From: Sphaerochaeta associata | Lineage (GTDB): Bacteria; Spirochaetota; Spirochaetia; Sphaerochaetales; Sphaerochaetaceae | Direction of reading: 5' to 3' | Assembly: GCF_022869165.1 (NCBI RefSeq) | Contig: NZ_CP094929.1 | Span: 62,001-126,000 of the forward strand | DNA: 64,000 nt | In this document: in pieces, positions 18,355 through 53,137 of the stretch | Numbering within the stretch: position 1 is the first letter of the stretch | Layout of the letters: every line of letters begins with the position of its first letter | Program-made: the position numbers and the translations under genes | Notes under the pieces: generated by a model | Databases searched by the model: none | What the model was told of the DNA's origin: nothing | The model's input: only the letters and a program-made list of their open reading frames with translations

Positions 18355-18381
18355 AAAAACCTTGGCTGCGGATAACCAAGG
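18355..18381 (-). terminator. Rho-independent terminator of the glycan operon
   Basis: Read on the minus strand: CCTTGG, 10-nt loop, CCAAGG, then TTTTT (complement of 18355-18359). It closes the operon whose last gene stops at 18414. Confidence 0.82.
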
Positions 18382-18413
18382 TATCGTTGTGAGGACTTCA
18401 GGTATGCTGTTTG

Positions 18414-20333
18414 TTAGAAACGAAACACCTCAGTACGACTTCCCTGGTGTACACATGCCCGTCCATAGGTTTTCAAGGAACCGGCACACAGCAGCTCCAT
18501 GGTTTCCTGATAGCGCAATAGTACCTCGATAGGTTCATCTGATCCTTTCTGAATGCGCCATGCACGTGCTTCCTGCTTGGAATACAACCGATTGCTTCTA
18601 GCTCCATGGACAGGCAGCTCCACAATCGTGCAGGATTTCGGCTGATCCATGGGTTCGGAATGCAGGACGAACAAGGCGCTGTTGGAGCCTTCTGCGTGTC
18701 TTTGCAACTGCACCGATGGTTTTGTCGTAAGGTCGTTGTAATGGGGTGCATAGAGCGTTCTGTTGGATACTGCCTCCATGCCTGGTTCAAAATACAGCGT
18801 GCTGGCAATCCCGGGAGATGAAACATGGATGGCGTTCGTCTCTGTGGTGATGTCCCCTTGATCGGAGAAATGAAAATGCCATGTAAAACTGTGATGTGAA
18901 GAGGTGATCAGGGTATCGTGTATGAGTACTAATGAAGCATCTATCTGCAGGATTTCCCGCTCGATCAGGACAGGGTGTTGCGCACCCATCAGATACCCGA
19001 GATTGTTTGCCTGGGCATAGTTCCAATTGCCTTTGCTGCTGAACATGCGATTGGCGCACAGGGCACGTTTTGCATATGTCCAGGTACTCTCATAGACGGT
19101 TGCATCCTTGCCGTCGACGACAATGGTGTTGTGGCTTGCCTGTTGTTTCAGGATTTTTCGTTCTTCTTTTTCACAGTAGGTGTAACGGCCGCTGTCAACC
19201 AATACATCATGACCATGGGCAACGATATCCACATGCAGAAGGTCGGCATGTCCGTGTCCTCCTCCGATTTGCCCGCAGCGGAAGTGACAGCAACTGTCCT
19301 GCTCGGTCCAGCCGGTACGAAGATAGATATTTCCACTTGCCATTGCTGCGAACGAACAAAAACCAGGTTCTTGGGTGGTTCTCCTGGCAAAGGATTCAAT
19401 CGCTTCCTTGCCTGCAAAGAAGCTGGAATAGGGTTCCAGCTCAGCAAAGCAGCCGACAGCCAAGCTCAGATCCTCCAGTAAGAATGATGCACGGGTCAGA
19501 ACATCACGGATATCCGTATCATCACTGTCGCTTTGCAGGAAGTGGTGTCGATTGGGTTTCATGCTGCCGAGCATGAAGGCAGCCATATCCTTGGCTTTAT
19601 CGGTAATATATGAGTCGAAGGGCCAACCGTACCGTTTTGCAGTTTGAATCATTGAGAGCAGGGCGGAAAGAACCTCTGCATGGTACAGCGGCGATTGTTC
19701 CCATTGCATGCCATCGCTGAGAATCTGGTAGGAAAGTGACTGCGCAACTCTCTGTTGAGCCAGCAAAGCCCGCTTTGTGTCATGCAGAAAAAGACTGCCC
19801 TTGAACAAGCCTGCATTGCCGATGATCCCCCAGTTGGAAAAAAGAAGAAACTCAGAATCCTGGGTTGCAAGATAGTCGGTATGCATTCGCACCCCGGCAA
19901 GAAACTGCTCCGAGTCCTCTTGCTTGAGCAGGAGCATGGCATCTATCCAGTGCATCAGACGCATGGAAGCATCGAGGCTTCGCCAGGTGATTTTTTCTCG
20001 TTCGACGGAATATGGGGCCTGTTTAAGGAAGTCATGGATGTACCAAACGGCTTTCTCTGCATAGCGGGAATCCTGTGTGATGACCCACGCTTGGGCCAGG
20101 TGGAGTACAAAGCCCGATCGGCTGAGCATGAACGTCCACTCGGGATCATCAGCCATCTGGTAATCCCAATCGATGGCCTGTTCGAAGGTATGGCTTACCC
20201 ACGTGGACTCCATGTCCCACGGCATGGAGAATTGGAAACACTGACCAAGGGCTCGATCGGCATGCTCGACCAGTAACTTCAGATAGTTTGGAAAATGGGT
20301 TTCAAGATGGGTTTTCAGATAGTTCATTTTCAC
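18414..20333 (-). CDS. Heparinase II/III family polysaccharide lyase
   Basis: 639 residues. The N-terminal ~350 residues form the helical toroid typical of heparinase II/III-like lyases (WRSLDASMRLMHWIDAM, LLFSNWGIIGNAGLFKGSLFL, LSDGMQWEQSPLYHAEVLSAL). The C-terminal half is the beta-sandwich domain (GHADLLHVDIVAHGHDVLVDSGRYTY, SHNTIVVDGKD). The GGGHGHADLL region carries conserved His. No signal peptide is visible, so it probably acts on imported oligosaccharides in the cytoplasm. Family: beta-elimination at uronates in heparin/heparan, alginate or related glycans; the exact substrate is unknown. The frame starts at GTG 20333 directly after the GH88 stop; an ATG two codons later is equally possible. 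Last gene of the operon. Confidence 0.88.
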   Translation of the reverse strand: MKMNYLKTHLETHFPNYLKLLVEHADRALGQCFQFSMPWDMESTWVSHTFEQAIDWDYQMADDPEWTFMLSRSGFVLHLAQAWVITQDSRYAEKAVWYIHDFLKQAPYSVEREKITWRSLDASMRLMHWIDAMLLLKQEDSEQFLAGVRMHTDYLATQDSEFLLFSNWGIIGNAGLFKGSLFLHDTKRALLAQQRVAQSLSYQILSDGMQWEQSPLYHAEVLSALLSMIQTAKRYGWPFDSYITDKAKDMAAFMLGSMKPNRHHFLQSDSDDTDIRDVLTRASFLLEDLSLAVGCFAELEPYSSFFAGKEAIESFARRTTQEPGFCSFAAMASGNIYLRTGWTEQDSCCHFRCGQIGGGHGHADLLHVDIVAHGHDVLVDSGRYTYCEKEERKILKQQASHNTIVVDGKDATVYESTWTYAKRALCANRMFSSKGNWNYAQANNLGYLMGAQHPVLIEREILQIDASLVLIHDTLITSSHHSFTWHFHFSDQGDITTETNAIHVSSPGIASTLYFEPGMEAVSNRTLYAPHYNDLTTKPSVQLQRHAEGSNSALFVLHSEPMDQPKSCTIVELPVHGARSNRLYSKQEARAWRIQKGSDEPIEVLLRYQETMELLCAGSLKTYGRACVHQGSRTEVFRF

Positions 20334-21488
20334 TTACCAATAGGGATTCCAGCTTGTGTGGCAGCGCAGCAATGCTTCCATATAGAAATAGTCACCCCAC
20401 AGCGAACACTCATCCACACCCCTGTCCTTGCAGGTATTGTACGGAGAACTTTTTGCATAGGTTCCGTGCAACAGCTGGCCGTTGGAACGGGACGGGTCCT
20501 TTACGGCACACGTTCGATACAGAACTCCCAGAAGCCGTTTTGCGGCTTGTCGATAGTACGCGGCCTCTGCTGGTTCCAAATGATCGGCCATCTCCAGCAT
20601 GCCGCAGACTGCTATCGCCGAAGCCGAGGAATCCCTGCTTTCGGTACTCCCGGTGGAGAAATCGAAATCCCAGTAAGGCAGCCAATCATCAGGGAGGTGG
20701 GCGAGGAAGAATTCGGTGACCCGAACAAAGAGTTCCTTGTATTGAGGGTCTTTGGTATATCGGTAGACCAATGCAGTTCCATAGATTCCCCAAGCTTGCC
20801 CTCGTGCCCAGGCAGACCCATCCCGATACCCCTGTGCCGTGACCCCTCGCAGGGGTTCGCCCGTCTTCGGGTCGAAATAGTAGGTATGGTAGGTCGAATT
20901 GTCGTCGCGCAGTACACAGGACATGGCCGTCCTGCTGTGCTCGACGGCTTTTCTTGCATACTTGCTCTCTCCCGTTTCCCGGGAAGCCCAAAACAGAAGG
21001 GGAAGATTCAACAGGCAATCGATGATCAGTCGATAGTTGTTCGGTGCCCCCAAGGGTCCCCATGCCTGGAAGAACTGTCCTTTTTCCTGGAACCTTGCGA
21101 GCAGGTTGTCGGCTGCCAGCAGTGCGGCTTCTTTTCCCGCTTGGCTGCCGACCAGTTTGTATGCCGCCACACACGACAACGAATAGAGAAAACCCATATC
21201 GTGATGTTCTACATCAATTTTCTCCTTGATTCGATAGAGGAAGCTCTGAACCTGCAGCAAGGCGGCCTCCTTGATACGTTCATCCTTGGTGTACTCCCAG
21301 GCCAACCAGAGTTCTCCAGTCCAAAAACCGGTGGTCCACTCCACGTTCTCACTTGGTGCATACCAGTTGTTCTCACTGTGTGAGTATTTGAATGCATGGG
21401 TGAAATCAGGCAGGCAGGCGGCAGTATTGGTGACTGCTGTTTGCAGTGCTTGGGTGAGTTCTTGATGTGTGAGCGGTGAAGTATCCAT
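20334..21488 (-). CDS. Glycoside hydrolase family 88, unsaturated glucuronyl hydrolase
   Basis: 384 residues with the GH88 (alpha/alpha)6-barrel pattern: WTTGFWTGELWLAWEYT near residue 45, VEHHDMGFLYSLSCVAAY near 95, NNYRLIIDCLLNLPLLFWAS near 160 and GSAWARGQAWGIYGTALVYRYT near 225. The HDMGF and IIDCLLNLP regions are where the two conserved Asp of the family lie. GH88 removes the 4,5-unsaturated uronic acid from the non-reducing end of lyase-generated oligosaccharides by vinyl-ether hydration, so it is the expected partner of the adjacent lyase. No signal peptide: cytoplasmic. A good AGGAG site precedes the ATG; it starts 8 nt after the previous gene. Confidence 0.94.
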   Translation of the reverse strand: MDTSPLTHQELTQALQTAVTNTAACLPDFTHAFKYSHSENNWYAPSENVEWTTGFWTGELWLAWEYTKDERIKEAALLQVQSFLYRIKEKIDVEHHDMGFLYSLSCVAAYKLVGSQAGKEAALLAADNLLARFQEKGQFFQAWGPLGAPNNYRLIIDCLLNLPLLFWASRETGESKYARKAVEHSRTAMSCVLRDDNSTYHTYYFDPKTGEPLRGVTAQGYRDGSAWARGQAWGIYGTALVYRYTKDPQYKELFVRVTEFFLAHLPDDWLPYWDFDFSTGSTESRDSSASAIAVCGMLEMADHLEPAEAAYYRQAAKRLLGVLYRTCAVKDPSRSNGQLLHGTYAKSSPYNTCKDRGVDECSLWGDYFYMEALLRCHTSWNPYW

Positions 21489-21496
21489 AATGGCTC

Positions 21497-22642
21497 CTAT
21501 AGGATCAGTGTTTTGGATGCAATTGATGCAAGACGATCGAAATCGAGCTCGATCCCAAAGCCTGATAGCGGTTTCTTTGTTGAAATCAAGCTACCTGATC
21601 GGTTGGTGGATATTGATCGGATGGACGTTTCAAATCCATCGCTGTCCCCATCCTTCTCTATCGCTTCAACCCAGGCTGCCTGCAAGCCGATGGCCACCTG
21701 CTGCCAAATGGTGCATCCCGGACCTATGAGGCTGTCGTCACCGATCATCAAGCCTGCATTGAAGGTCCCCTGTATGGTTCGGGCAAGCTCTATCGCATCA
21801 ATCAGTGAAGCGGCGGAACCGGGATGAATATTGTAGAATTTCCCCATTCCTGCAAGCAGGGTCTTTCTTGCCTGTCTTGCGGGGCGAAGCGGATAATCGG
21901 GAATGAGGGCAAGATTTGGACAGCTTTGTTGCAAGGCAGCCCAACCTTCCATCGTCAGGGCGGCAGGATCTTCGCATGCATCAAGGCCTGCTTGTTCGAG
22001 GTGATGCATCGCAATCTCAATCTCCTGAAGAGGGACATCGAATTCATGCCTGCAGTATCCGCAATTTACATCTCCCAATAGGAACGTCGACTCTCGGGGC
22101 GCATACGTTCTGATAAGGTCGATGATCGAGGTATCCAGGTCGAGGTCCCCGAACAACTTCACCTTCACCACTTGCGCCCGATTGCTTGCGATAGCGGTTT
22201 TAATACTTGCTTCAACCACTTCCAGCTTGTCTGAAAGGATTACATACGCACCGTGAACAGGTTTCTCACCTTCCAGTCCCAACAGGGAGAGGGCAGGAAC
22301 TCCCGCACACTTTCCGGCTAGGTCGAAGAGAGCCATTTCCAACACCTCGGTAAGCCGATCTCTCCAGATTCCCATATGGGAACGTACCTGCAGAAGAGCT
22401 TCTTCCAAGGTAAGGCCCTTGAGTTGCTTGAGTACGGAAATCCAGGAATCGAGGCTCACCTGGGGATTGTTCACTGAGATGATGTTCTCCCCCCAGCCCT
22501 GATGATCCTTGCTTTGCAGGCAGACAAAGACGTGCTGTCTGCTTGTCCAGGTTCCGAAACTGAAGTTTCGAACTGCATGTACCTGCATCAGGTATACATG
22601 GATATTCTCGATTCTGGATGTGTGTCCTTGAAGCTGTATCAT
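21497..22642 (-). CDS. Enolase-superfamily enzyme (mandelate racemase/muconate lactonizing type)
   Basis: 381 residues. A capping N-terminal domain is followed by a barrel with the usual signature: VVKVKLFGD (KxK acid/base lysines), LLGDVNCGYC (first metal Asp), CEDPAAL (Glu), then LALIPDYPLRP, and a C-terminal LSGFGIELDFD of the type seen in this superfamily. Members abstract the alpha-proton of carboxylates (racemases, epimerases, sugar-acid dehydratases). Between GH88 and the sulfatases it plausibly processes the uronic or sugar acid released from the glycan; the specific reaction cannot be read. Its start overlaps the sulfatase stop (ATGA, 22639-22642), so the genes are translationally coupled. 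Confidence 0.82.
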   Translation of the reverse strand: MIQLQGHTSRIENIHVYLMQVHAVRNFSFGTWTSRQHVFVCLQSKDHQGWGENIISVNNPQVSLDSWISVLKQLKGLTLEEALLQVRSHMGIWRDRLTEVLEMALFDLAGKCAGVPALSLLGLEGEKPVHGAYVILSDKLEVVEASIKTAIASNRAQVVKVKLFGDLDLDTSIIDLIRTYAPRESTFLLGDVNCGYCRHEFDVPLQEIEIAMHHLEQAGLDACEDPAALTMEGWAALQQSCPNLALIPDYPLRPARQARKTLLAGMGKFYNIHPGSAASLIDAIELARTIQGTFNAGLMIGDDSLIGPGCTIWQQVAIGLQAAWVEAIEKDGDSDGFETSIRSISTNRSGSLISTKKPLSGFGIELDFDRLASIASKTLIL

Positions 22643-24039
22643 TTGGTTCCCTCCACATGGGTGATGAACGGGTCGTTTGCATCCCTAAGCCACTTTATTA
22701 ATGCGCCCTCCAGCGGATGTGGCTCTGAAAGAAGGAGGGGATTAATTTGCTCTGGATCGGCCTGCAAGTCGTAGAAATACCGACGCAGGCAGGGGGTGGT
22801 TGTATACCCGACTTCCACGACATAGCAGGACTCCTTGGTACGGACAGAGCGCCAGCCAAAGGCTTTCGGGTCGAGGGAGGCGGCTTCGAACTGCCTGAGA
22901 AACACCTCTCTTCCCGGGCAGGCTGCCAGAAAGCATGCTTTCGTCTCATCGGTCATGCCTTTTTCGATCGAGGATGCACAACTGATGCCTTCCATGGAGG
23001 GAGGAATCGGAAGATTCAGCAAATCAAGAATTGTGGGGGCGATGTCGGGACTTCCAATGACTGTTTCCGTTTTCCCTGACGGCAGGCCCATTCCACCAAA
23101 CAGCAAGGGGACCCCGATGGATTCCTCGTACCACACATGCTTGCCTATAAGTTGATGGCTGCCAAGCATGTCCCCATGGTCCGCAGTCAAGACGACAAGC
23201 GTGTCGGAGAGGATGTTGTTTTGTTTCAGATACTCGATCAATCTGCCAAACTGCTCATCAAGACCCGTAATCGCTGCATAATAATCCTTTTGCAATGCAA
23301 TGAAAGCCTCTTCATCGAGATCAAACGATTCAAATGTGTGATGATGGACCGCTCCCAGCTGCACATTCTTCTTTCTGGGCAACTGAAGGTTCTCGTACAG
23401 CTTTTTATACTGCTCGGGGGCGGTATCATACGGACTGTGGGGAGGATTCCATGAAAGAAAGAGTGCGAAAGGAGCATCCTGCTTTCGTGTTTTCAGAAAC
23501 TGCAGGGCCACATCGGTCTCATGGATGGGAGACCAGACATCCTGCTTGATCATCCGGTCGTCGTCCTTCCAATAGTGGGGTGTCGTATGCTCATCACTGG
23601 CGTTGTAGGCGTACCAAAAGTCAAAACCGTGTCGTCTTGGTCCCACAGGGGTATAGGCATCCCAGTTGCGTGCTCCTGAAGGTGGGTTATTCACATGGTT
23701 CACCTCAGGTTCATCCAGATGCCATTTCCCTATGTACCCTGTCTGATACCCTTCTTTTTGCAGCACATCACTGATGCAGATTTCCTCATCCTTCAAACGG
23801 ATGGAAGCACCTGTCTTGCAGTTGGTGAAAACACCGGTTGCAAGCGGGTGTTTTCCGGTCAAAAGACTGGCACGGGCAGGTGAGCAGAGCGGACAGGTGC
23901 TCACGCCGTTGGTACACACGATTGAATCGGCGGCAAATGCATCCATATTGGGTGTTATGACCGGCTCTTGTCCTTCATAACCGACAGCACTTCTTCTCCA
24001 CTGGTCTGCAAACACGAATAGTACGTTCTTCTTCTTCAT
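22639..24039 (-). CDS. Sulfatase, anaerobic Cys-type (1)
   Basis: 466 residues from the ATG at 24039, which overlaps the upstream stop and has an AAGGA site; an in-frame upstream ATG would lie within the previous gene. Sulfatase hallmarks: NVLFVFADQWRRSAVG with the metal Asp, CPLCSPARASLLTGKHP (CxPxR, Cys to become formylglycine), GYIGKWHLDEPEVNH (GKWH), and LTADHGDMLGSH. The C-terminal half follows the choline-sulfatase/iduronate-sulfatase plan. No signal peptide, so cytoplasmic desulfation of imported oligosaccharides. A Cys-type enzyme needs a radical-SAM maturase in an anaerobe; none is encoded in the window. Confidence 0.94.
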   Translation of the reverse strand: MKKKNVLFVFADQWRRSAVGYEGQEPVITPNMDAFAADSIVCTNGVSTCPLCSPARASLLTGKHPLATGVFTNCKTGASIRLKDEEICISDVLQKEGYQTGYIGKWHLDEPEVNHVNNPPSGARNWDAYTPVGPRRHGFDFWYAYNASDEHTTPHYWKDDDRMIKQDVWSPIHETDVALQFLKTRKQDAPFALFLSWNPPHSPYDTAPEQYKKLYENLQLPRKKNVQLGAVHHHTFESFDLDEEAFIALQKDYYAAITGLDEQFGRLIEYLKQNNILSDTLVVLTADHGDMLGSHQLIGKHVWYEESIGVPLLFGGMGLPSGKTETVIGSPDIAPTILDLLNLPIPPSMEGISCASSIEKGMTDETKACFLAACPGREVFLRQFEAASLDPKAFGWRSVRTKESCYVVEVGYTTTPCLRRYFYDLQADPEQINPLLLSEPHPLEGALIKWLRDANDPFITHVEGTK

Positions 24040-25424
24040 GCCCAGGTCCTTGTATAGTCGATCCAATCATTGGATTGCCGTGCCCATGTACTGAGCATGC
24101 GATGCAACTGTTGTTCCCGCTGGCGATACTGATCCAGACCACTGAGGTTGATGCTCTCACCAGGATCCTTTTCCAGATGAAACAATTCCGCCTCCATTCC
24201 ATCCCATACGTATTTCCATCCTTCATGGACGATCATCCTGCGGATGTCCCCGATGGCATGATTGCCGTTGTAGACGGAAAATACTGGCTTTATGGGCGGT
24301 GGTGTCCCTTCCAGGATGGTGTGTGCCAAAGAACTTCCTTCAAAGGACTGTCCGCACGCAACATCCAGCAGATCGAGGATGGTGGGTACAAAATCAAGAT
24401 GAGAGATGGGAGTATTCTGCACCGAAGACGTTGCATCGGTGAGATGGATGACAGCAGGCACTCGTACAGCACTCTCGTACATCTCCATTTTTTGGTACAT
24501 TGCATGCTCCCCCAGCTGTTCCCCATGATCTGCGGTGCAGACAAGCAGGGTATCGTCAAACAAATCCTGTTGCTTGAGTTCCTGCACCAAGCGGTTCAGT
24601 TGGTCGTCGCATAGGCGTGTCAAGGCATAGTGGGCTGCCCAGGCTTTCTTCCACATTGATGGCTCAGTGTTTGCCCCCAGTTGCCTCGCCGCCCCGTTTC
24701 TACGGTTCTGCGGTTCCCTGATGGCCGGGCAGGAGATGGTATCCCCTAAATGAATGTCATCGGGGTTGAACAAGGCCTGATATGCAGGAGGGACCACCAA
24801 AGGAGGATGGGGTGCCCAAAGACAGACAAACAAGGCAAAGGGTTTTGCATGGTCCTTTCTGATGAAAGCAAGCGCCTTGTCGGTGAACCAGACATCCTTG
24901 AAACGGGAAAGGTCGTCGTCAAACGGCCTGACACGAGTATTGGAATACATTCGATTCTCATAGGTTCCATCGCACAACTCACTGACTTGTGAGCGTTGAG
25001 AGGGATGTGCCTTGCAAGAAAAACCTTCTGCTGCGGCGTAGGCCTCATAGCTATGGTCATCCTCCCACGCTGAGAAGGGCAATGATAGTTCAAGCTTCGG
25101 ATCCAGACTGATGTGATTCACTCCGATATGGGCGACATCGTAGCCTGCCTCATACAACATCCTGTGCAGGCTTGTATGAGCTTTTGCAAGCTTACCGGGC
25201 AAATCATTGAGCACCATACCCGTTCTCAATGGATTCATACCAGTGGCCAGTGATGTCCTGGCTGGAACACAGAGCGGGCAGGATGTATAGGTGTTTGAGA
25301 AATAGACTCCATCATTGGCCAACGTATTCCAGGTCGGGGTGACTTCTTGATTACCCACTTTGGCAAACAAGGTGTCGAAGCGTTGCTGGTCGGTCATGAA
25401 GAAAAGCAAGTTTTTTGATGGCAT
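24036..25424 (-). CDS. Sulfatase, anaerobic Cys-type (2)
   Basis: 462 residues. MPSKNLLFFMTDQQRFDTLF carries the metal-binding Asp; TSCPLCVPARTSLATGMNP is the CxPxR formylglycine site; GYDVAHIGVNH replaces the common GKWH; VCTADHGEQLGEH is the C-terminal metal loop. It is a paralogue of the neighbouring sulfatase but clearly diverged, suggesting a different sulfate position on the same glycan. No signal peptide. It follows the binding-protein gene after a strong hairpin (25435-25461) and overlaps the next start by ATGA. Confidence 0.93.
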   Translation of the reverse strand: MPSKNLLFFMTDQQRFDTLFAKVGNQEVTPTWNTLANDGVYFSNTYTSCPLCVPARTSLATGMNPLRTGMVLNDLPGKLAKAHTSLHRMLYEAGYDVAHIGVNHISLDPKLELSLPFSAWEDDHSYEAYAAAEGFSCKAHPSQRSQVSELCDGTYENRMYSNTRVRPFDDDLSRFKDVWFTDKALAFIRKDHAKPFALFVCLWAPHPPLVVPPAYQALFNPDDIHLGDTISCPAIREPQNRRNGAARQLGANTEPSMWKKAWAAHYALTRLCDDQLNRLVQELKQQDLFDDTLLVCTADHGEQLGEHAMYQKMEMYESAVRVPAVIHLTDATSSVQNTPISHLDFVPTILDLLDVACGQSFEGSSLAHTILEGTPPPIKPVFSVYNGNHAIGDIRRMIVHEGWKYVWDGMEAELFHLEKDPGESINLSGLDQYRQREQQLHRMLSTWARQSNDWIDYTRTWA

Positions 25425-25434
25425 TGGTATGATG

Positions 25435-25461
25435 GGCGGCCTGCCTGATCGGCAAGCCGCC
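25435..25461 (-). other. Intercistronic hairpin between binding protein and sulfatase
   Basis: An 11-bp stem (GGCGGCTTGCC / GGCAGGCCGCC on the minus strand, one G-T wobble) with a 5-nt loop lies 19 nt after the binding-protein stop. No T-run follows, so it probably stabilises or attenuates rather than terminates. Confidence 0.7.
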
Positions 25462-25480
25462 GCTCCTTTCTTGTATGTGC

Positions 25481-27070
25481 TTAGAGTGACAGGTAGCGCT
25501 GATAGGCATCAGCATAGATCTTGAGGTAGCGATCGAGGCCCATCTGCTGCAGGCGCTTGAGATAGCCGTCCCAATCCCGTTCAATTCCACCGTTGACGAT
25601 CCAGTTTGCATAGTTCTGGGCGACATAGGCGGTAATGTCGGTTTCCAGGACCGCAATTTGCTCAACTTCATCCACCGTAAAATATACTTCAGGATAGACT
25701 TGGTCGGCAGGTACGTTGTAGGGAGCGAAGAATGCATCAAGTTCGACGCGTTCCTGCAGATTGGCATTCAAGTTGAGCTTTGAGGCGATTTCCATCGTTA
25801 CTGCACCAAGACTGTTGACTCCCGGTGAGTAGTCATGAATCATCTCGGTGAAGCTCTTGCCTGCAGGAATCGGTAGATAGTCATACCGACCCTCTGCATT
25901 GATGGTCAGGGTTCTGCCCAGCAATCCCTGATCGATCTGCAGTGCTGTTTCAGGAACAAAATGCAGGTCGACCCAGCGCATCAAAGCCTCGGGATTCTTG
26001 CAGTCGTTGGTGATGGCAAACGATCCTTTGGCATTGATGTAGGATGTATACGTGTTCCAGATCTGTTTGCCGTCAGCACCCTTGAGCGGGGCAAGAGCCA
26101 CATAATCGGGCTTGTTGGCACCCGCTGCAGAGGAGAGACTCCAGCCGACGAACGATCCGACGATTTTCTCGGGAGACTTTACCTTGGCAATGTAGACGTT
26201 GAAGTCGTGGGTGAAGCCTTCCTTGTCGATCAAGCCCTTCTTGTACAGCTCATTGAAGTACTGGATGGCTTGTTTGTATGGTTCTGTGACTGCGGTATAG
26301 ATGACTTTATTTTCCTTGACAATCAAGTGGTTGAGTCTATCAAGCTGTCCAAAGCTCCCAAACAAGGAGAACAGTCCATTTTCCTTTCGATTGTAGAGGA
26401 ACGAGAAGGGAATCTCATCATCCGTTCTTCCATTTCCATTCATGTCGTTGTTCTTGAATGCAGTCAGCACTGCTTCAAACTCTGCAAGGGTGGTGGGAAT
26501 GCCCAGGCCCAGTTTGTCCAGCCAAGTCTTGTTGATGAACAGCTTGTCATGGGTGACCGGTGAGAGTTCGGTAAGCGAAGGAAGTGCATAGATATGGCCG
26601 TCGGGTGCGGTAAGCAGCTTGCGATACGACTCATTTTCCAACAGCTTCTTCACGTTCGGTGCATACTCATCGATGAGATCCTCCAGAGGAATAAGCAATC
26701 CCTGGGATGCATACTTGATGACATCGATGTCGGTCAGGATTCCTTGTCCGTAGAAGGCATCTGGAAGATCGCCGGCAAAAATAAGTCCCTTTTTCTCACG
26801 CCAGCCATCCTCACTGCTCATATTCCATTCGATATGGATATTGGTTTCCTTCTCGAGGTTCTGGAAAAATTCTAGGTTGGCGAAATTCTTGTTGTGCCTT
26901 GATTTTGCAGCCAGTTCAAAGGTGGTCACCTCGTTGGTGATCGGCATTCCTGTACGATTCACTGCGATTGCAGCTGCGGTTGTCTGTCCTGCGCTCTCCT
27001 TGCTTCCTTGAGCAAAGACACCTGTTGCGATGCATAGCAAACACATGCATACGATTCCTACTCTTCTCAT
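25481..27070 (-). CDS. Extracellular oligosaccharide-binding protein (LipO-type, ABC family 1)
   Basis: 529 residues. A signal peptide ends at GVFAQGSKES, with no lipobox Cys. Features of the large LipO/YtcQ-type binding proteins: NIHIEWNMSSEDGWREKKGL..., LPDAFYGQG near residue 105, ALPSLTELSPVTHDKLFINKTWLDKLGL, then NDMNGNGRTDDEIPF, a calcium-site-like loop, and EALMRWVDLHF. These partner with LplB/LplC-type permeases and carry complex oligosaccharides. Encoded directly after the two permeases in the same operon, so it delivers the substrate that the downstream lyase, GH88 and sulfatases degrade. Confidence 0.92.
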   Translation of the reverse strand: MRRVGIVCMCLLCIATGVFAQGSKESAGQTTAAAIAVNRTGMPITNEVTTFELAAKSRHNKNFANLEFFQNLEKETNIHIEWNMSSEDGWREKKGLIFAGDLPDAFYGQGILTDIDVIKYASQGLLIPLEDLIDEYAPNVKKLLENESYRKLLTAPDGHIYALPSLTELSPVTHDKLFINKTWLDKLGLGIPTTLAEFEAVLTAFKNNDMNGNGRTDDEIPFSFLYNRKENGLFSLFGSFGQLDRLNHLIVKENKVIYTAVTEPYKQAIQYFNELYKKGLIDKEGFTHDFNVYIAKVKSPEKIVGSFVGWSLSSAAGANKPDYVALAPLKGADGKQIWNTYTSYINAKGSFAITNDCKNPEALMRWVDLHFVPETALQIDQGLLGRTLTINAEGRYDYLPIPAGKSFTEMIHDYSPGVNSLGAVTMEIASKLNLNANLQERVELDAFFAPYNVPADQVYPEVYFTVDEVEQIAVLETDITAYVAQNYANWIVNGGIERDWDGYLKRLQQMGLDRYLKIYADAYQRYLSL

Positions 27071-27099
27071 TGCAAACCTCCATGTTGTATATGTGTAGA

Positions 27100-27990
27100 T
27101 CAGCCCTTCACCGAGCCCATCATGACACCTTTGGCAAAATATTTCTGTAAGAACGGATACACCACCAACACCGGCAGCGTGGAAACGATGATCAGGCCGT
27201 ATTTAATAAGTTCAGCTGCCCTCTGTTGCTCCAACAGGCTCTCCACATCGCCCATCATGTCAGCCGATGCCTGATTTTGGATGAGGATGCCCCTGAGTAC
27301 GAGCTGCAAGGGGTACAGTGACTCATCCTTGAGGTAGATCAAACCATTCATGAACTCATTCCAGTGTGCAACTCCATAATAGAGAATCAGGACGGCGATG
27401 ATGGTCTGCGAGAGCGGGAAGACCACCTTGAAAAAGAACGTGAAGTGAGAACAACCGTCGATGGATGCCGCCTCATACAGCTCTTCGGGGATGGAATTCT
27501 TGATGTTGGTCTTTGCGATGATGACATTGAACACATTCAGTGCCGGCAGGAGCACCATGACAAACGGGGTGTTGTACAATCCGAGAGTTCTCATCAGCAG
27601 GTAGGTTGGGATCAAACCGCCTGAAAAGTACATGGTGAACATCATGAAAAACGTAAGGAACTTGCGGGCGAAGAACTCTTTTCTGGAAAGCGGGTAAGCA
27701 AAGAACATGGTCAGCATGATGTTGATGAACGTCCCGAATGCCGTATAGAGAATGGTGTTCCTGTAAGCGGTCCAGATTGATTGCTCGCTGAAGATGCGCT
27801 CGTATCCTGTGGTGTTGAACCCAACAGGGAAAAGCAGGACTTTACCAGTATTGATGGCGTCGGGTTCGGAAAATGAGGCGATGATGATGAAATACAAGGG
27901 ATAGAGAACCAAGAGGGCCACCAGTGCGAGAAGTATGGTGTTTGCTGTATCAAAAATCGTGTCTGCGTGTCTGCTCAATGGATTGTGCAT
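27100..27990 (-). CDS. ABC transporter permease (LplC/YtcP-like)
   Basis: 296 residues, six predicted membrane helices, and the EAA loop EELYEAASIDGCSHFTFFFKVVFPLSQ (residues ~180-207) that docks the ATPase. Ends with QKYFAKGVMMGSVKG, the common tail of MalG/LplC permeases. RBS AAGGAG before the ATG. Second of the two permeases. Confidence 0.94.
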   Translation of the reverse strand: MHNPLSRHADTIFDTANTILLALVALLVLYPLYFIIIASFSEPDAINTGKVLLFPVGFNTTGYERIFSEQSIWTAYRNTILYTAFGTFINIMLTMFFAYPLSRKEFFARKFLTFFMMFTMYFSGGLIPTYLLMRTLGLYNTPFVMVLLPALNVFNVIIAKTNIKNSIPEELYEAASIDGCSHFTFFFKVVFPLSQTIIAVLILYYGVAHWNEFMNGLIYLKDESLYPLQLVLRGILIQNQASADMMGDVESLLEQQRAAELIKYGLIIVSTLPVLVVYPFLQKYFAKGVMMGSVKG

Positions 27991-28003
27991 TCGTTCTCTC
28001 TCC

Positions 28004-28930
28004 TTACCACAGACTGTGTTCGCTGGTTTTCTGTGCCAGTCTGTTTACACTGACGAGCAGGATGATATTGATGATGTTGTTGAAGAGCCCGATGGCTGCA
28101 GAGTAGCTGAACTGGGCGTCGATCAAGCCGACTTTATAGATGTAGGTCGGTATTATCTCACTGGCGCTGATGTTCAGTCCGTTTTGCATGAGATAAGCCT
28201 TTTGGAATCCAATGTTCATGATTTTCCCGATTTCCAGGATGAACATCATGATTGCTGTAGGCAGAATGCCGGGAATGTCGATGTGCCGGATTATTTGAAA
28301 CTTGTTTGCTCCATCTATTTGGGCGGCTTCATATAAATCAGGGCTGATCGCAGCAAGGGCCGCGATGTAGATGATTGCATTCCAGCCGGCATTCTGCCAA
28401 ATGCCTGACAACACAAAAATCGGACGGAACCAAGCCGGGTCACCTAAAAAGAAGATTGTCTCATTTCCAAGGGCTTTCATCAGAAGGTTGACCAGGCCGT
28501 TGCGCGGTGAGAGGAATATATACAGCATGCCGGTCATGACGATGATGGAGATGAAATGAGGACAGTATGTAACGGTCTGGATGAATTTCTTGAATTTGTA
28601 ATGTTTCAATTGATTCAGCATGATGGCCAGGAAAATCGGCACCGGAAAACCGAAGATAAGCTGAGAGAGGCTCAAGGAGAGCGTGTTCTTGATCAGGGGC
28701 CAGAATTGATAGGAGTTGAAGAAGCGCTCAAACTGCTTGAATCCCACCCAGGGACTGCCGGTAATGCCGCGTGCTGCGATGTAATTCTTGAAGGCGATCT
28801 GCACGCCATACATGGGCAGATAGTGAAATATGAGGTAATAGGTGATGGGCAACAGGCACAATACCAAGAGCTGCCAGTCGCGGATCCACATCCTCTTAAG
28901 CGGTTTCATACGTTGATTCTTTACTGTCAT
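28004..28930 (-). CDS. ABC transporter permease (LplB/YteP-like)
   Basis: 308 residues, six membrane helices; N-terminal LLPITYYLIFHYLPMYGVQIAFKNY is typical of LplB permeases, and the EAA loop is SPDLYEAAQIDGANKFQIIRHIDIPG (~195-220). First gene of the operon, with promoter at 28966-28995. The operon encodes no ATPase, so a shared MsmX/MsmK-type ATPase elsewhere is expected, as known for LplB/LplC systems. Confidence 0.93.
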   Translation of the reverse strand: MTVKNQRMKPLKRMWIRDWQLLVLCLLPITYYLIFHYLPMYGVQIAFKNYIAARGITGSPWVGFKQFERFFNSYQFWPLIKNTLSLSLSQLIFGFPVPIFLAIMLNQLKHYKFKKFIQTVTYCPHFISIIVMTGMLYIFLSPRNGLVNLLMKALGNETIFFLGDPAWFRPIFVLSGIWQNAGWNAIIYIAALAAISPDLYEAAQIDGANKFQIIRHIDIPGILPTAIMMFILEIGKIMNIGFQKAYLMQNGLNISASEIIPTYIYKVGLIDAQFSYSAAIGLFNNIINIILLVSVNRLAQKTSEHSLW

Positions 28931-28965
28931 TCCTAACTTCCCCTCATCGATTGGATGGCAGGTTC

Positions 28966-28995
28966 AGTATAGGGATGTACTTTTTTATCACGCAA
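28966..28995 (-). promoter_or_regulatory. Promoter of the glycan operon
   Basis: On the minus strand: TTGCGT (28990-28995), 18-bp spacer, TATACT (28966-28971). A GAGGGGAAG ribosome-binding region precedes the permease ATG at 28930. Confidence 0.6.
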
Positions 28996-29037
28996 TGTCC
29001 GGTTTTTTTTCGAATGTGCAGTTCTTATACCAGGCAC

Positions 29038-29073
29038 TATGCAATTTTTTTTGGAGTATGCAATATTTTGGAG
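29038..29073. promoter_or_regulatory. Tandem direct repeats, candidate AraC-type operator
   Basis: TATGCAATTTTTTTTGGAG (29038-29056) and TATGCAATATTTTGGAG (29057-29073): the same ~18-bp motif twice in tandem, in the gap between the divergent regulator and operon. AraC/XylS proteins usually bind direct repeats of this size upstream of the -35 element, so this is the natural target of the neighbouring regulator. Inference, not demonstrated. Confidence 0.5.
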
Positions 29074-29147
29074 AAGCAGATGAAAAAGATGATAAGTATA
29101 TGCAAATAAGAGAAATGATGCTTGATAACCCGGCAATGCATCACTTC

Positions 29148-29176
29148 GTTGTAGTTTCAGTGAGTGATGCTATACT
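29148..29176 (+). promoter_or_regulatory. Promoter candidate of the AraC-type regulator
   Basis: TTGTAG near 29149, about 16-bp spacer ending TGC, TATACT (29171-29176): an extended -10 promoter. An AGAGGT site precedes the GTG start at 29197. Confidence 0.5.
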
Positions 29177-29196
29177 GGTACGAAAGAGGTACATCA

Positions 29197-31410
29197 GTGA
29201 AGCTCCAGTTCAGGCATAAACGTTGGTTTTATAAACACCTGTTCTCCTACATCCTCCTGCTTGTGGTTCCCTTGGTCATCATCAATGGATGTTTTGGGAA
29301 ACAAATCAACGAAACGTACCAGCAGGAGGTGGTCTCCCGACTCAGGTCGGACATCCATGCGCTCAGGGATACGGTAGACGACGAACTCGAGCTCCTGCTC
29401 AGTACCGTACACCAATTTCAATTGTTGCAGACAGTAAATCGTTATCGGTTTGAAGATGATCCCCTGCAGGCCAACTCCATCAAATCCATGCTGGCCACCT
29501 TTACCATAACCAATCGCTTGCTTGGCGACATAGTCTATCTGCCTTACGGCCAGAACTTTCTTTTTACCAGCTCAACCACCAGCAGGATTGACTTTTTCGC
29601 CCGGGAGATGTACGTGACCGAGGGCCTCGAACCTGAGGAATTTTTATCAGAGCTTTACTCCTTGAAGCACTTGAAAGCGTATTCAGTGGAGCGCTACAAG
29701 AATGAGAAGGGGCTGGTGATTGCCATTCCCCTGGTTTCCGACTACGCAACAGTAAGCGGGGTCTGCCTGTTCTTCATCGCCGATTCCACCCTGGAAGCGA
29801 TGATACACAGCAAGCTTTCCCAATACAGAGCCCGTCTGCAGTTGCATGCCGATGATGATTCCCTCTTATTCCAATCCTCCGCTTCTGATGAGCCAATGCC
29901 TGATCAAGCGATTACCTTCTCTGTGTCATCGAACGTGGCTCCTTGGGCCTATACGGTCCACATTCCCCAAGAACAAGCACTCTTGGATGATTTGAATCGA
30001 CTCTCCGGCTTGCAGCAGACCAGCACCTTGATCGTGGTGCTTGCTGTTTCAGTTCTCATATTCTTTCTCATGTTCATCAACTATACGCCGATCAAGCGAC
30101 TGCAGAAACTTGCGGGAAATCTTGCCGATGCCAACCCTGCCGCCCGAAAGCTTGGTGAGCTGGAGGAGATTGCAAGCACCTTGGATTATCTGAAGAACCA
30201 GAATACCTCGCTTGTGATGAAACTGGAAAAAAGCCGGGAATCAGAACACAACATCGTGTTGCAAAGGTTGTTGAGCGGCAGGTACAAGACCATTAAGGCC
30301 TTTAATGTGGATGCATCCGAGCTGAGTATTGAGTTTCAGTACCCGCAGTTCCTGGTTGCTTGCATCCAACTGCAGGAAACCAACCGGGATAGTGATGAAT
30401 TGGCCCAATTGATGCGTGATGAGCTGCCCGAGGAATTAAACTGCTACTATGTGTTCACCCCGATTCCAGACCGGATCTATTTCATCAATAGTGTAAGGAC
30501 CGAGGATTTCGTATGCATACCCGCCTTCTATGAGGGCATGCGAAAGACCATAGAGGCACAAACCGGATTGAGTCTGACCGTCGGCCTTGGTTCTCTGGTC
30601 GAAGGAGCGATCGATATTCCCCGTTCCTTCCTGGAAGCACGTACGGCATTGGATTATCGGTTTGTCAAAGGGAAGAATACAACCATAATTTTTGACGAGG
30701 TGTGCAAGTCTGTAAGCTATTCGGTATCCTATCCCCACACCCTGTTGGACCAATTGCATGTTTCGCTGAAAGCGCGTAATGAAGAAGCAATTGAGAGCAG
30801 GACGGCTGAACTCATTGCGTTTCTCGTGCAGGATACGATTCCTCTCTTTTTAGCGAAGAGCATCTCCTTTGATATGATCACCCTTTTCTTCGATCATCTG
30901 CCGGCTTCCGTACAATCGGCTGAGGATTCTCAGCGGGAATTCTTCCTGCTCAGCGATATTGACACCATCGATGAAGTGGTGCAAATCGTAGAGTCGGTGA
31001 AGGATAAGCTTTTACATATGGAAAAGCTTGAACATACCGAGGATTCCCAGGCGTTGCTCAAGGATATCACCGAGTACATCAAGGTGCATTGCTTTGAATG
31101 CAACTTCACCATGCTGCAGGTATCGGATGCTTTTTCCATGCAATTGCCCAACCTGAGCCTGTTTTTCAAGGAACATACCCAGCTCAATCTGCTGGATTAC
31201 GTAACCGCACTCCGCATGCATGCAGCCAAGCAGTTGTTGTCGGAAACAGACCTTCCGCTCAAGGATGTCAGTTTGCAAATCGGATACTATAATATCTCAA
31301 GCTTTATTCGTAGATTCAAGCAGCTGAATGGGATAACCCCCGGGGACTATCGCAAGATACATAAGGGGATGCAAAGAAAACCAAAGAGTCCGGATGAGAA
31401 TCTTGTATAG
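29197..31410 (+). CDS. Membrane-anchored AraC family regulator
   Basis: About 737 residues from the GTG at 29197 (AGAGGT 7 nt upstream); an ATG 33 nt upstream overlaps the promoter and is rejected. Helix 1 (FSYILLLVVPLVIING, ~residues 13-28), an extracellular domain to ~270, helix 2 (STLIVVLAVSVLIFFLMFIN), a cytoplasmic linker, and a C-terminal pair of helix-turn-helices of the AraC type (~640-730: LSLFFKEHTQLNLLDYVTALRMHAAKQLL, PLKDVSLQIGYYNISSFIRRFKQLNGITPGDYRK). Such one-component membrane regulators sense an extracellular signal and commonly sit next to LplB/LplC oligosaccharide operons. It is divergent from the glycan operon and likely activates it. Confidence 0.9.
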   Translation: MKLQFRHKRWFYKHLFSYILLLVVPLVIINGCFGKQINETYQQEVVSRLRSDIHALRDTVDDELELLLSTVHQFQLLQTVNRYRFEDDPLQANSIKSMLATFTITNRLLGDIVYLPYGQNFLFTSSTTSRIDFFAREMYVTEGLEPEEFLSELYSLKHLKAYSVERYKNEKGLVIAIPLVSDYATVSGVCLFFIADSTLEAMIHSKLSQYRARLQLHADDDSLLFQSSASDEPMPDQAITFSVSSNVAPWAYTVHIPQEQALLDDLNRLSGLQQTSTLIVVLAVSVLIFFLMFINYTPIKRLQKLAGNLADANPAARKLGELEEIASTLDYLKNQNTSLVMKLEKSRESEHNIVLQRLLSGRYKTIKAFNVDASELSIEFQYPQFLVACIQLQETNRDSDELAQLMRDELPEELNCYYVFTPIPDRIYFINSVRTEDFVCIPAFYEGMRKTIEAQTGLSLTVGLGSLVEGAIDIPRSFLEARTALDYRFVKGKNTTIIFDEVCKSVSYSVSYPHTLLDQLHVSLKARNEEAIESRTAELIAFLVQDTIPLFLAKSISFDMITLFFDHLPASVQSAEDSQREFFLLSDIDTIDEVVQIVESVKDKLLHMEKLEHTEDSQALLKDITEYIKVHCFECNFTMLQVSDAFSMQLPNLSLFFKEHTQLNLLDYVTALRMHAAKQLLSETDLPLKDVSLQIGYYNISSFIRRFKQLNGITPGDYRKIHKGMQRKPKSPDENLV

Positions 31411-31523: not shown

Positions 31524-32537
31524 ATGAAAAAGTTAATGGTCGTAATGTGCTTGGCACTCGTCCTCGTTGCTCCTGTCTTCGCCCAAGGGCAAGGTGAGAG
31601 TAAAGGTGTTGAAATCGGATGCGCAATCTACAAGTTCGATGACACCTTCATGACCGGTGTCCGCAATGCCATCACCGCCGCTGCCGCCGAGACTGATGCA
31701 AAGGTTGAGGTCGTCGATTCCATGAACATCCAGGCCACTCAGAATGAGAAGGTCGACCTGTTCATCACCAAGGGAATGAAAGCCATGCAGATCAACCCTG
31801 TCGACCGCACCGCCGCCGGTGTCATCATCGACAAGGCTAAGAAAGCCAACATTCCCGTAGTATTCTTCAACCGTGAACCGCTGGCTGAGGATATGGCAAA
31901 GTGGGACAAGATCTACTACGTTGGGGCTCGTGCTGAAGAGTCCGGTACCATGAGTGGTCAGATCATCGCCGACTATTGGAAGGCCAACAAGTCCATGGAC
32001 AAGAATGGCGACGGCGTTCTGCAGTATGTCATGCTCAAGGGCGAACCCGGCCACCAGGACGCAGAGCTGCGCACTGAATACTCCATCAAGAATCTGCAGG
32101 ACAACGGAATCAAGGTGCAGAAGCTTGCTGAAGACACCGGCATGTGGGATCGTGTAAAGGGCCAGGAAAAGATGGCCGCTTTCATCGCCAGCCAGGGCGA
32201 CAAGATTGAAGCAGTCTTTGCAAACAATGATGACATGGCTCTTGGTGCAATCGAAGCCCTTAAGGCTGCCGGTTACTTCAAGGACGGAAAGTTCATGCCT
32301 GTCGTTGGTGTTGACGCCACCGCTCCTGCTCTCCAGGCTCTCGAAGAAGGCACTCTGCTGGGCACCGTCCTCAACGACGCTGTCAACCAGGGCCGTGCAA
32401 CCTTCATGCTCTCGTATGATTTGGCAAGGGGAATCACCCCCACCGATGCTTCCATCGGCTACAAGATTACTGATGGAAAGTACGTATGGGTTCCCTACCA
32501 GAAGGTCACCAAGGAGAACTACAAGCAGTTCAAATAA
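31524..32537 (+). CDS. mglB: Sugar ABC transporter substrate-binding protein (MglB-like)
   Basis: 337 residues with a signal peptide ending PVFAQGQGES. The mature start EIGCAIYKFDDTFMTGVRNAI is very close to galactose/glucose-binding MglB, and DKNGDGVLQYVMLKGEPGHQDAE contains the calcium-loop-like DKNGDG of MglB proteins. NNDDMALGAIEALKAAG and PVVGVDATAPALQAL are conserved hinge/ligand segments. RBS AGGAGGG. It binds a hexose or pentose in the periplasm and delivers it to the following MglA/MglC. A terminator-like hairpin separates it from mglA, which would lower permease expression relative to the receptor. Confidence 0.92.
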   Translation: MKKLMVVMCLALVLVAPVFAQGQGESKGVEIGCAIYKFDDTFMTGVRNAITAAAAETDAKVEVVDSMNIQATQNEKVDLFITKGMKAMQINPVDRTAAGVIIDKAKKANIPVVFFNREPLAEDMAKWDKIYYVGARAEESGTMSGQIIADYWKANKSMDKNGDGVLQYVMLKGEPGHQDAELRTEYSIKNLQDNGIKVQKLAEDTGMWDRVKGQEKMAAFIASQGDKIEAVFANNDDMALGAIEALKAAGYFKDGKFMPVVGVDATAPALQALEEGTLLGTVLNDAVNQGRATFMLSYDLARGITPTDASIGYKITDGKYVWVPYQKVTKENYKQFK

Positions 32538-32558
32538 CGTTTGAAATGCAGGAATTCC

Positions 32559-32593
32559 CCCTCCGGGTTGCTCGATGATCCGGAGGGTTTTTT
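32559..32593 (+). terminator. Attenuating terminator between mglB and mglA
   Basis: CCCTCCGG, 13-nt loop, CCGGAGGG, then TTTTTT. A second stem (CCCCGG-GAAAG-CCGGGG, about 32605-32621) follows before the mglA ribosome-binding site. Since mglA/mglC lie downstream without a visible promoter, this is likely a partial terminator. Confidence 0.8.
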
Positions 32594-32636
32594 AAAGGGA
32601 CTACACCCCGGGAAAGCCGGGGAGGCGAGGGAAGTC

Positions 32637-34145
32637 ATGTATGTATTAGAAATGAACCATGTTTCCAAGGCGTTCCCCGGCGTAAAGGCTTTGGACGACG
32701 TGAGCTTGAAAGTAAGGCCGGGAACAGTGCATGCCTTGATGGGAGAGAATGGAGCAGGCAAGTCCACCTTGATGAAGTGCCTGTTCGGCTTGTACTCCAT
32801 GGATGAGGGTGATATAGCCTTCAATGGGCAGCCCGTCAACATTGCCAGTGTCAAAGAGGCACTGAACCTGGGAATCTCCATGATTCACCAGGAACTCCAT
32901 CTCATACCCTACCGGTCGGTGATGGAAAATATTTGGCTCGGCCGGTACCCACGTATCGGGGGATCGAAGAGCCCCGTTGTGGATCACAAGAAAATGTACG
33001 AGATGACCGCTTCCTTGTTGAAGGAGCTCAATCTCACCACCATACAGCCGACCGATTTGCTGCGTACGCTCTCCGTCTCCAAGGCCCAGAGTGTCGAGAT
33101 TGCAAAGGCGGTCTCCTATGAATCAAAAATCATCATCATGGATGAACCGAGCTCCTCCCTGACGGAGAATGAGGTTGAACATCTGTTCACCATCATCCGC
33201 TCTCTAAGGGATCGCGGGGTTGCGATCATCTACATTTCCCATAAAATGGAAGAAATCTTGAAGATTTCCGACGAAGTGACCATCATGCGTGACGGCAAAT
33301 ATGTCGGTACCTGGCCCTCCAGCGAACTGACCACCGCCACCATCATCAAGAGAATGGTAGGTCGTGACCTGACTCATCGGTTCCCGTCGGCTGAGAGCAA
33401 CATCGGCTCTGAATTACTCAGGGTTGAAAATTACACCTCGCCGAACCCCAGAAGCTTCAAGGATGTTTCCTTCACCCTGCATAAAGGCGAGATTTTGGGA
33501 ATCGGCGGTTTGGTCGGAGCCCAACGCACCGAAGTCATGGAGGCCGTTTTCGGTTTGAGGCTCCACAGTGAAGGAACGTTGTACCTGAAGGGCAAGCCGG
33601 TGCACTGCAACAATGCCTATGATGCCAAGAGACTGGGGATGGCCCTGCTCACCGAGGAGCGTAGAGCGACGGGAATTTTCCCTGTTCTGTCTGTGCAGGA
33701 GAACTTGGTAATTGCCAACATTGCCTCATATGTGAACAAGAGCGGGCTTCTCAATGCCGCAAAGATGGCTGAGGACACCAAGAAGAGCATCAAGGATTTG
33801 GATATCAAGACGCCGTCGGCGAGAACCTTGATCAAGAGCCTGAGCGGCGGAAACCAGCAGAAAGTGCTTTTTGCCCGTTGGTTGCTCACCACCCCTGAGA
33901 TTCTCATTCTTGACGAACCGACGCGTGGTATCGACGTCGGGGCCAAGTATGAGATTTATGTCATCATGCGAGAGCTTGCAGCACAAGGCAAGGGCGTGAT
34001 TATGATCAGCAGTGAGATGCCGGAACTCTTGGGTATGACCGATCGAATCGTAGTCATGAGTGAAGGTCGTGTGGCGGGTGTCGTGGACAGCAAGAAAACA
34101 AGCCAGGAAGAGATTATGGAACTGGCGACAAAGTACGTCGGGTAG
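32637..34145 (+). CDS. mglA: Sugar ABC transporter ATP-binding protein (MglA-like)
   Basis: 502 residues from the ATG at 32637 (GAGGGA site). Two fused ABC domains: N-terminal Walker A GENGAGKST and signature LRTLSVSKAQ with Walker B IIIMDEPSSSL; the C-terminal domain has GGLVGAQRTEV in place of Walker A, a proper signature SLSGGNQQKVLFAR and LILDEPTRGIDVGAKYEIY. This degenerate second Walker A and the DVGAKYEI tail are typical of RbsA/MglA-class monosaccharide importers. Cytoplasmic, pairs with the MglC-like permease 9 nt downstream. Confidence 0.95.
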   Translation: MYVLEMNHVSKAFPGVKALDDVSLKVRPGTVHALMGENGAGKSTLMKCLFGLYSMDEGDIAFNGQPVNIASVKEALNLGISMIHQELHLIPYRSVMENIWLGRYPRIGGSKSPVVDHKKMYEMTASLLKELNLTTIQPTDLLRTLSVSKAQSVEIAKAVSYESKIIIMDEPSSSLTENEVEHLFTIIRSLRDRGVAIIYISHKMEEILKISDEVTIMRDGKYVGTWPSSELTTATIIKRMVGRDLTHRFPSAESNIGSELLRVENYTSPNPRSFKDVSFTLHKGEILGIGGLVGAQRTEVMEAVFGLRLHSEGTLYLKGKPVHCNNAYDAKRLGMALLTEERRATGIFPVLSVQENLVIANIASYVNKSGLLNAAKMAEDTKKSIKDLDIKTPSARTLIKSLSGGNQQKVLFARWLLTTPEILILDEPTRGIDVGAKYEIYVIMRELAAQGKGVIMISSEMPELLGMTDRIVVMSEGRVAGVVDSKKTSQEEIMELATKYVG

Positions 34146-34154
34146 GGGGAAAGC

Positions 34155-48972: not shown

Positions 48973-49036
48973 ATCAGTGTACTATGTATTTATTTTCATA
49001 AGATTCAGAGAACGTAACAGGCAAGTGAGGAACAAC

Positions 49037-49552: not shown

Positions 49553-49553
49553 T

Positions 49554-50834: not shown

Positions 50835-50847
50835 GATGGAGGGTGCA

Positions 50848-53084: not shown

Positions 53085-53096
53085 ACGAGTCACGTG

Positions 53097-53113
53097 ACCC
53101 GAAGTTTTCGGGT
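53097..53113 (+). other. Hairpin before the dctP gene
   Basis: ACCCGAA, loop GTT, TTCGGGT, 15 nt before the receptor's RBS. A likely mRNA-processing or stabilising stem between dehydrogenase and receptor. Confidence 0.5.
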
Positions 53114-53137
53114 AGAGAATACGTAGGAGGATTCGAT

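Follow-up and report, generated by a model that had tools for sequence, protein, structure and literature searches.

Two questions are raised by a locus of Sphaerochaeta associata: whether a sulfated uronate glycan can be imported and degraded by an operon that carries neither the ATPase of its transporter nor the maturase of its sulfatases, and what a protein of the enolase superfamily contributes there. The window analyzed is the 64,000-nucleotide stretch C1:62001-126000 of a single-contig genome of 3,554,903 bases. An earlier note on this DNA had proposed cytoplasmic use of such a glycan, and this is well supported by our analysis, in which an ATPase and a maturase were located elsewhere in the genome. 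We think it likely that this operon serves to import and degrade short, sulfated fragments of 1,3-linked glycosaminoglycans (GAGs; chondroitin or dermatan, possibly hyaluronan) by the steps set out below, while extracellular depolymerization would be left to others. That the operon lacks an ATPase is nothing unusual; the surprising part of the locus is its enolase family.

Eight co-directional genes run along the minus strand from 28930 to 18414 (Table 1), with intergenic gaps, in operon order, of 13, 29, 56, -31, -4, 8 and 0 bp. Given gaps within -31 to +56 bp and a hairpin after the last gene, the run is likely to be a single operon, and all the genes that had been named for it are present. 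In a hairpin scan of the region terminator-like sites were not above shuffled expectation, and it is only the position of the site at 18382-18359 that speaks for a terminator. The start listed for the sulfatase S1 gene is a TTG; translation more likely begins at the internal ATG that opens MKKKNVLFVF. The divergent gene encodes the membrane AraC regulator that had been described, with two hydrophobic segments by hydropathy, at residues ~21-48 and 280-311. Neither an ATPase nor a maturase was found in the Pfam search and ORF list of the operon, and there was no SusC/SusD pair among its ORFs, all as the earlier note had stated; a reading as a SusCD-type polysaccharide utilization locus (PUL) was rejected on this gene content. 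Elsewhere in the window, a ribose-type sugar ABC operon (binding protein, double ATPase, permease) was recognized by eye downstream of the regulator gene at 31524-35174, and TRAP-transporter genes with an oxidoreductase gene at 48977-54133.

Table 1. Features of the operon and its divergent regulator, by position in the window.
Feature	Position	Strand	Evidence and remarks
LplB-type ABC permease	28004..28930	-	PF00528, 1.1e-15; orthologues in syntenic L073, L074 and L084
LplC-type ABC permease	27100..27990	-	PF00528, 1.8e-11
Oligosaccharide-binding protein, periplasmic, signal peptide without lipobox Cys	25481..27070	-	PF13416
S1-family sulfatase S2, Cys type (CVPARTSLATG), without signal peptide	24036..25424	-	PF00884, 1.6e-44
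S1-family sulfatase S1, Cys type (CSPARASLLTG)	22639..24066	-	PF00884, 7.9e-50
Enolase-superfamily protein (K160, K162, D191, E224, D249, H273)	21497..22642	-	Profile match to MLE-type enzymes
GH88 unsaturated glucuronyl hydrolase	20334..21488	-	PF07470; 371 bits to 2zzr/3anj
Heparinase II/III (PL12-like) lyase, without signal peptide	18414..20333	-	PF16889 and PF07940
Terminator-like hairpin and T run, 3' of lyase gene	18359..18382	-	Position directly after last gene
AraC-type regulator, membrane-anchored, divergent	29164..31410	+	PF12833, 1e-17; PF17853; orthologues divergent from same operon in L074 and L084

The five enzymes were said to be without signal peptides, and hydropathy bears this out. 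No hydrophobic N-terminus is seen in the first 60 residues of any of them, where the maximum over 15 residues is 0.20 for the lyase, 0.55 for GH88, 0.57 for the enolase protein, 0.80 for S2 and 0.99 for S1, against 2.65 for the binding protein. In both sulfatases the fold begins a few residues past the start codon.

The description of the binding protein as a LipO-like receptor calls for correction. Its signal sequence ends at VFA, followed by QGSKES. The lipobox Cys of a typical lipoprotein is missing there, and the protein is probably a soluble one of the periplasm. Its best solved match is 5g5y at 280 bits, with 94-143 bits to the binders of glycosaminoglycan or alginate 5xs8, 5gub and AlgQ1/AlgQ2. 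As 5g5y outscores 5xs8 and 5gub (~142 bits), the ligand may differ from that of the binding protein of Streptobacillus moniliformis.

The genome contains five MalK-type ATPase sites, identified by the OB_MalK domain, and two further ATPases that adjoin transporters. One ATPase is an orphan, encoded ~1 Mb from the locus at C1:1,065,306-1,066,400 between neighbors that are a ribose-type ABC operon and a transposase, with no adjoining ABC sugar permease of matching kind. It alone exceeds the UgpC subfamily cut-off (502 vs 432 bits), and among named solved structures it matches MsmX best (6yir, 418 bits). Multitask ATPases have a published signature of D77, R104, E110 and K154 (PMC7658222). All four residues are found in the orphan ATPase, where the match of Walker A K43 validates the numbering, and the full set occurs in none of the six other ATPases of the genome. 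The genome search for an MsmX-type ATPase that had been proposed as a check thus returned a candidate. We infer that this protein powers the importer: the periplasmic binding protein and LplB/LplC would carry oligosaccharides over the inner membrane, with the orphan ATPase as motor. MsmX-type shared ATPases are already established (PMC7658222), and the absence of an ATPase from the operon is therefore unremarkable. The candidate resembles them in being an orphan MalK-like protein with the four signature residues, and differs in coming from a spirochaete and in that its multitask role is predicted from sequence. Beside its gene, L037:14544-18344 holds a DDE transposase and a divergent protein with a Hepar_II/III C-terminal domain, a gene content hinting at a rearranged former glycan locus.

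The sulfatases would act on the imported fragments. The best solved matches of S1 are 2qzu (269 bits) and, second, 6j66 (257 bits), a chondroitin/dermatan 4-O-endosulfatase; 6s21 (226 bits), given in the match list as an endo-4-O-sulfatase, is fourth. No substrate is assigned to 2qzu in the output, and we count this top match against a 1,3-linked GAG as substrate. The solved matches of S2 are diverse. In a Hungatella metagenome-assembled genome the orthologues of S2 and S1 are fused in one ORF of 968 residues (L084:7078-9984) with both C-x-P-x-R motifs intact, from which we deduce that the two act in the same place.

All 13 of the S1 orthologues compared are of the Cys type, as are all eight sulfatases found in the genome, two in the locus and six others. 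The latter is expected if a single anaerobic maturase serves them all. A candidate is encoded near another sulfatase gene, at C1:525,908-527,005, so that the second proposed genome search, for an anSME, was also productive. Among all NCBIfam families anSME ranks best for this protein, with scores slightly below the curated cut-offs (332 vs 349.45 and 358 vs 441 bits), and for that reason we term it anSME-like. The motif set of CX3CX2C, SPASM cysteines and Cys-Asp is present, in C19/C23/C26, C254, C260, C275-D276, C279, C316, C319, C325, C329 and C341. The Asp following the SPASM Cys, here D276, is one that we take to be a functional residue of anSMEs. Once activated by this maturase, S1 and S2 would strip sulfates in the cytoplasm, before or together with cleavage by the lyase.

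The gene for an enolase-superfamily enzyme is present as had been reported, but its unusual nature had been missed. The protein has no Pfam match at 1e-3 and belongs to a distinct, uncharacterized family within the superfamily. Its AlphaFold model (pLDDT 93.4) superimposes on 3q45 with a VIA-align Z of 38.0 and an rmsd of 2.6 over 354 residues. The fold and metal ligands are those of the enolase superfamily, with D191, E224 and D249 at the ends of β3, β4 and β5. In the family alignment K160, K162, D191, N193, E224, D249, R35 and R253 are invariant in 20 out of 20 rows, and H273 is present in each of the 19 rows that reach its position. By DSSP the catalytic and ligand residues lie at or just past the ends of β2 to β6, and with their conservation this indicates an intact active site that includes a Lys/His pair. 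H273 aligns with the Lys at the end of β6 in 2p88 and 3q45, and we do not assign the protein to the muconate lactonizing enzyme (MLE) subgroup, since it has K160 and K162 but His in place of Lys at the β6 position. With MLE and dipeptide epimerase type enzymes (2p88, 3q45, 3iji) it shares the fold (Z ~38), the KxK motif and the D/E/D metal ligands; it differs from them by the β6 His and also by a conserved W-x-x-R-Q-H in the capping domain, by an identity of only 15-21%, and by a genomic context that ties it to sulfatases and lyases of glycans. Many enolase subgroups are tied in Z in the Foldseek and VIA-align lists, so the reaction is not assignable from the fold alone.

The family is rare, with 20 loci comprising the present one and 19 among 84,980 species genomes. 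Two of the entries (L089 and L092) were counted once as they are probably pieces of one assembly, and L093, at 26% identity, was left out. In 16 of these loci the enolase gene directly adjoins a sulfatase gene, and in 13 this neighbor is the S1 orthologue. On the opposite side of the pair lies either the LplBC transporter or an unrelated CUT1 set, and from this variation we take the enolase-sulfatase pair to be the constant part. A PL12-like lyase accompanies the enolase in six loci, and GH88 in seven including that of Treponema lecithinolyticum. Among the same-genus genomes searched none has an orthologue, with one containing a 28% paralogue, and just 3 of 394 other genomes of the class have one (47-51% identity). 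The unrelated assembly L073, by contrast, has the same eight genes in identical order, with an enolase 66% identical. This patchy occurrence together with the conserved gene order suggests that the whole eight-gene unit moved by horizontal transfer.

Two neighbors of the pair in other genomes are worth recording. Directly after it in T. lecithinolyticum is the gene for a DUF2264 protein (L080:12595-14652), a domain on which a literature search found nothing. In Vallitalea (L077:11127-13142) a 671-residue protein without a Pfam match is encoded with the enolase gene on one side and two sulfatase genes on the other, and by eye alone it resembles a TIM-barrel type glycosidase.

What reaction might this protein catalyze? 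We tentatively favor 4,5-dehydration or C5-epimerization of a uronate. In this, the weakest of the proposed steps, the enzyme would take the C5 proton of a uronate by way of a Mg-bound enolate, with Lys162 and His273 as an opposed acid-base pair. Most likely this would lead to elimination of the 4-OH from a saturated GlcA or IdoA at the non-reducing end, generating the unsaturated uronide that GH88 needs. If true, it could explain the handling of saturated ends that the classical route of lyase and GH88 cannot use. That the family represents a new activity of GAG catabolism, either 4,5-dehydratase or C5-epimerase, using an unusual Lys/His acid-base pair and accompanying a cytoplasmic sulfatase in Spirochaetes, Firmicutes and Bacteroidota alike, is a proposal that we make tentatively. 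A point against it is that systems containing PL8 need no enolase to explain the fate of the uronate. We had considered that T. lecithinolyticum lacked GH88, so that its enolase must make the substrate of KduI, but this is ruled out by a GH88 gene that its cluster contains ~11 kb upstream. A literature search returned no relevant paper linking the enolase superfamily to glycosaminoglycan breakdown, uronate dehydratase or chondroitin; should the family act on the glycan, its chemistry would be one that GAG breakdown is not known to use.

Epimerization is the main alternative to elimination. A uronate C5-epimerase would convert L-iduronate to D-glucuronate in dermatan-derived disaccharides before their further cleavage. 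The nearest solved relatives include enzymes of 1,1-proton transfer (dipeptide epimerase and N-succinyl amino acid racemase), K162 and H273 would provide the bases on both faces that an epimerase needs, and S1 is related to a dermatan 4-O-sulfatase. However, the second base is His and not the Lys of those epimerases, and the lyase and GH88 remove the C5 difference anyway, just as loss of the 4-OH would make the C5 configuration irrelevant. We consider this unlikely, though a serious contender. It could also be that the operon simply carries along an enzyme of an ordinary kind, such as an acid-sugar dehydratase, a racemase or a cycloisomerase, that acts on an unrelated metabolite. Specificity within the superfamily is broad, and distant members of the family (L086, Polaribacter L087 and Paenibacillus L090) lie outside GAG loci, in the absence of GAG enzymes, from which we conclude that the substrate of the family may be broader than GAG. 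Against this, the gene adjoins a sulfatase in most of its loci in several phyla with differing transporters, so the pair has been kept while the rest changed, and we find a passenger role possible but doubtful. A parallel is 3,6-anhydro-L-galactonate cycloisomerase (5xd8, 5xd9), likewise an enolase-superfamily enzyme recruited to the breakdown of a sulfated polysaccharide and found among the structural neighbors, at an identity of 14-15%. That enzyme differs in serving the agar pathway and in having acid-base residues of the mandelate racemase type.

The nature of the glycan had been left open between heparan-, chondroitin- and ulvan-like, and this can now be narrowed. GH88 aligns over its full length with the unsaturated glucuronyl hydrolase (UGL) of Streptococcus agalactiae, and its closest relative is thus the streptococcal enzyme for hyaluronan and chondroitin disaccharides. 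In T. lecithinolyticum the enolase locus holds a secreted PL8, GH88, GH123, KduI, KduD and sulfatases. Taken with S1, the GH88 and the loci of relatives favor the chondroitin/dermatan/hyaluronan type, and 1,3-linked GAGs are the most likely substrate as judged by these comparisons. The lyase matches 4mmi with 186 bits (family profile), and the best Foldseek matches of its model (pLDDT 81.9) are heparinase III structures, including a fold match to 4mmh. PL12 lyases have catalytic residues N240, Y294 and H424 (PMC12088678, Table 4). N167, Y217 and H360 of the lyase align with these, and are invariant in eight rows. The lyase would cut the remaining oligosaccharides to 4,5-unsaturated disaccharides, from which GH88 would free the unsaturated uronate. 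This would then pass to KduI, which is encoded elsewhere in the genome at C1:1,555,661 (equivalog score 418.6 bits, cut-off 250). A PL8 lyase was not found in the genome by a PF08124 search that was positive in a control genome, and a literature search on Sphaerochaeta and glycosaminoglycan gave nothing relevant.

The kinship of the lyase to heparan lyases keeps heparan oligosaccharides in play as substrate. The operon would then serve heparan sulfate or heparin: the lyase would be of the PL12 heparinase III type, the sulfatases would be N-sulfo or 6-O/2-O enzymes, and GH88 would act on unsaturated disaccharides with a 1,4 linkage. Both sulfatases also reach the SGSH_C Pfam domain, and heparan sulfatases are in the solved-match lists of S1 and S2. 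Yet S1 is far closer to the chondroitin/dermatan 4-O-sulfatase than to the 2-O or 6-O heparan sulfatases, GH88 is nearest to an enzyme for 1,3-linked GAGs, and what the relatives' loci carry is PL8 and GH123 instead of further heparinases. PL12 alone would point to heparan, but a PL12 gene is also part of the S. moniliformis cluster, and the glycans used there are hyaluronan and chondroitin but not heparin (PMC5430744), which favors the 1,3-linked type. On balance we regard heparan as distinctly improbable. Loci for ulvan also contain GH88/GH105, sulfatases and lyases, but an operon directed at ulvan, or at some other sulfated uronate glycan of algae, is very hard to reconcile with a GH88 of UGL type, with GH123 and PL8 in the relatives' loci, and with the absence from the operon, by Pfam search, of any ulvan lyase family or rhamnosidase gene, and it was rejected on gene content.

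With 1,3-linked GAGs as the preferred substrate, the closest known system is the GAG genetic cluster of S. moniliformis, Smon0115-0128, for which ABC import and a cytoplasmic sulfatase and GH88 are known (PMC5430744). The two have in common an ABC importer of LplB/LplC/LipO type (the aldouronate/LplBC kind), the PL12 lyase HepC, and a sulfatase and a GH88 UGL that are cytoplasmic, lacking signal peptides. The present locus differs in having no dedicated ATPase, no PL8 and no kdu/kdg genes (KduI, KduD, KdgA, KdgK) in the cluster, in having two sulfatases rather than one, in a binding protein that is only distantly related, and in the added enolase-superfamily gene. Because it has no dedicated ATPase we call it a variant and not a member of the S. 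moniliformis type. Cytoplasmic GAG systems are already known, and the added part is the enolase-like family, which recurs beside sulfatases. With the Bacteroides chondroitin PUL that has the endo-4-O-sulfatase 6s21, the locus shares an S1-like sulfatase and GH88. The enzymes of that PUL are periplasmic and work with SusCD, whereas here there are cytoplasmic enzymes and an ABC importer. What is predicted is thus a complete cytoplasmic route for sulfated GAG fragments in a spirochaete, drawing on a shared ATPase and a maturase scattered over the genome.

A second locus of the same genome, at C1:1,075-1,080 kb, pairs GH88 with a Hepar_II/III protein (L038:5025-8180; C1:1,077,024-1,080,179), with a binding protein and permeases and without sulfatase or ATPase. 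This locus probably serves unsulfated fragments. Its GH88 is 54% identical to that of the operon.
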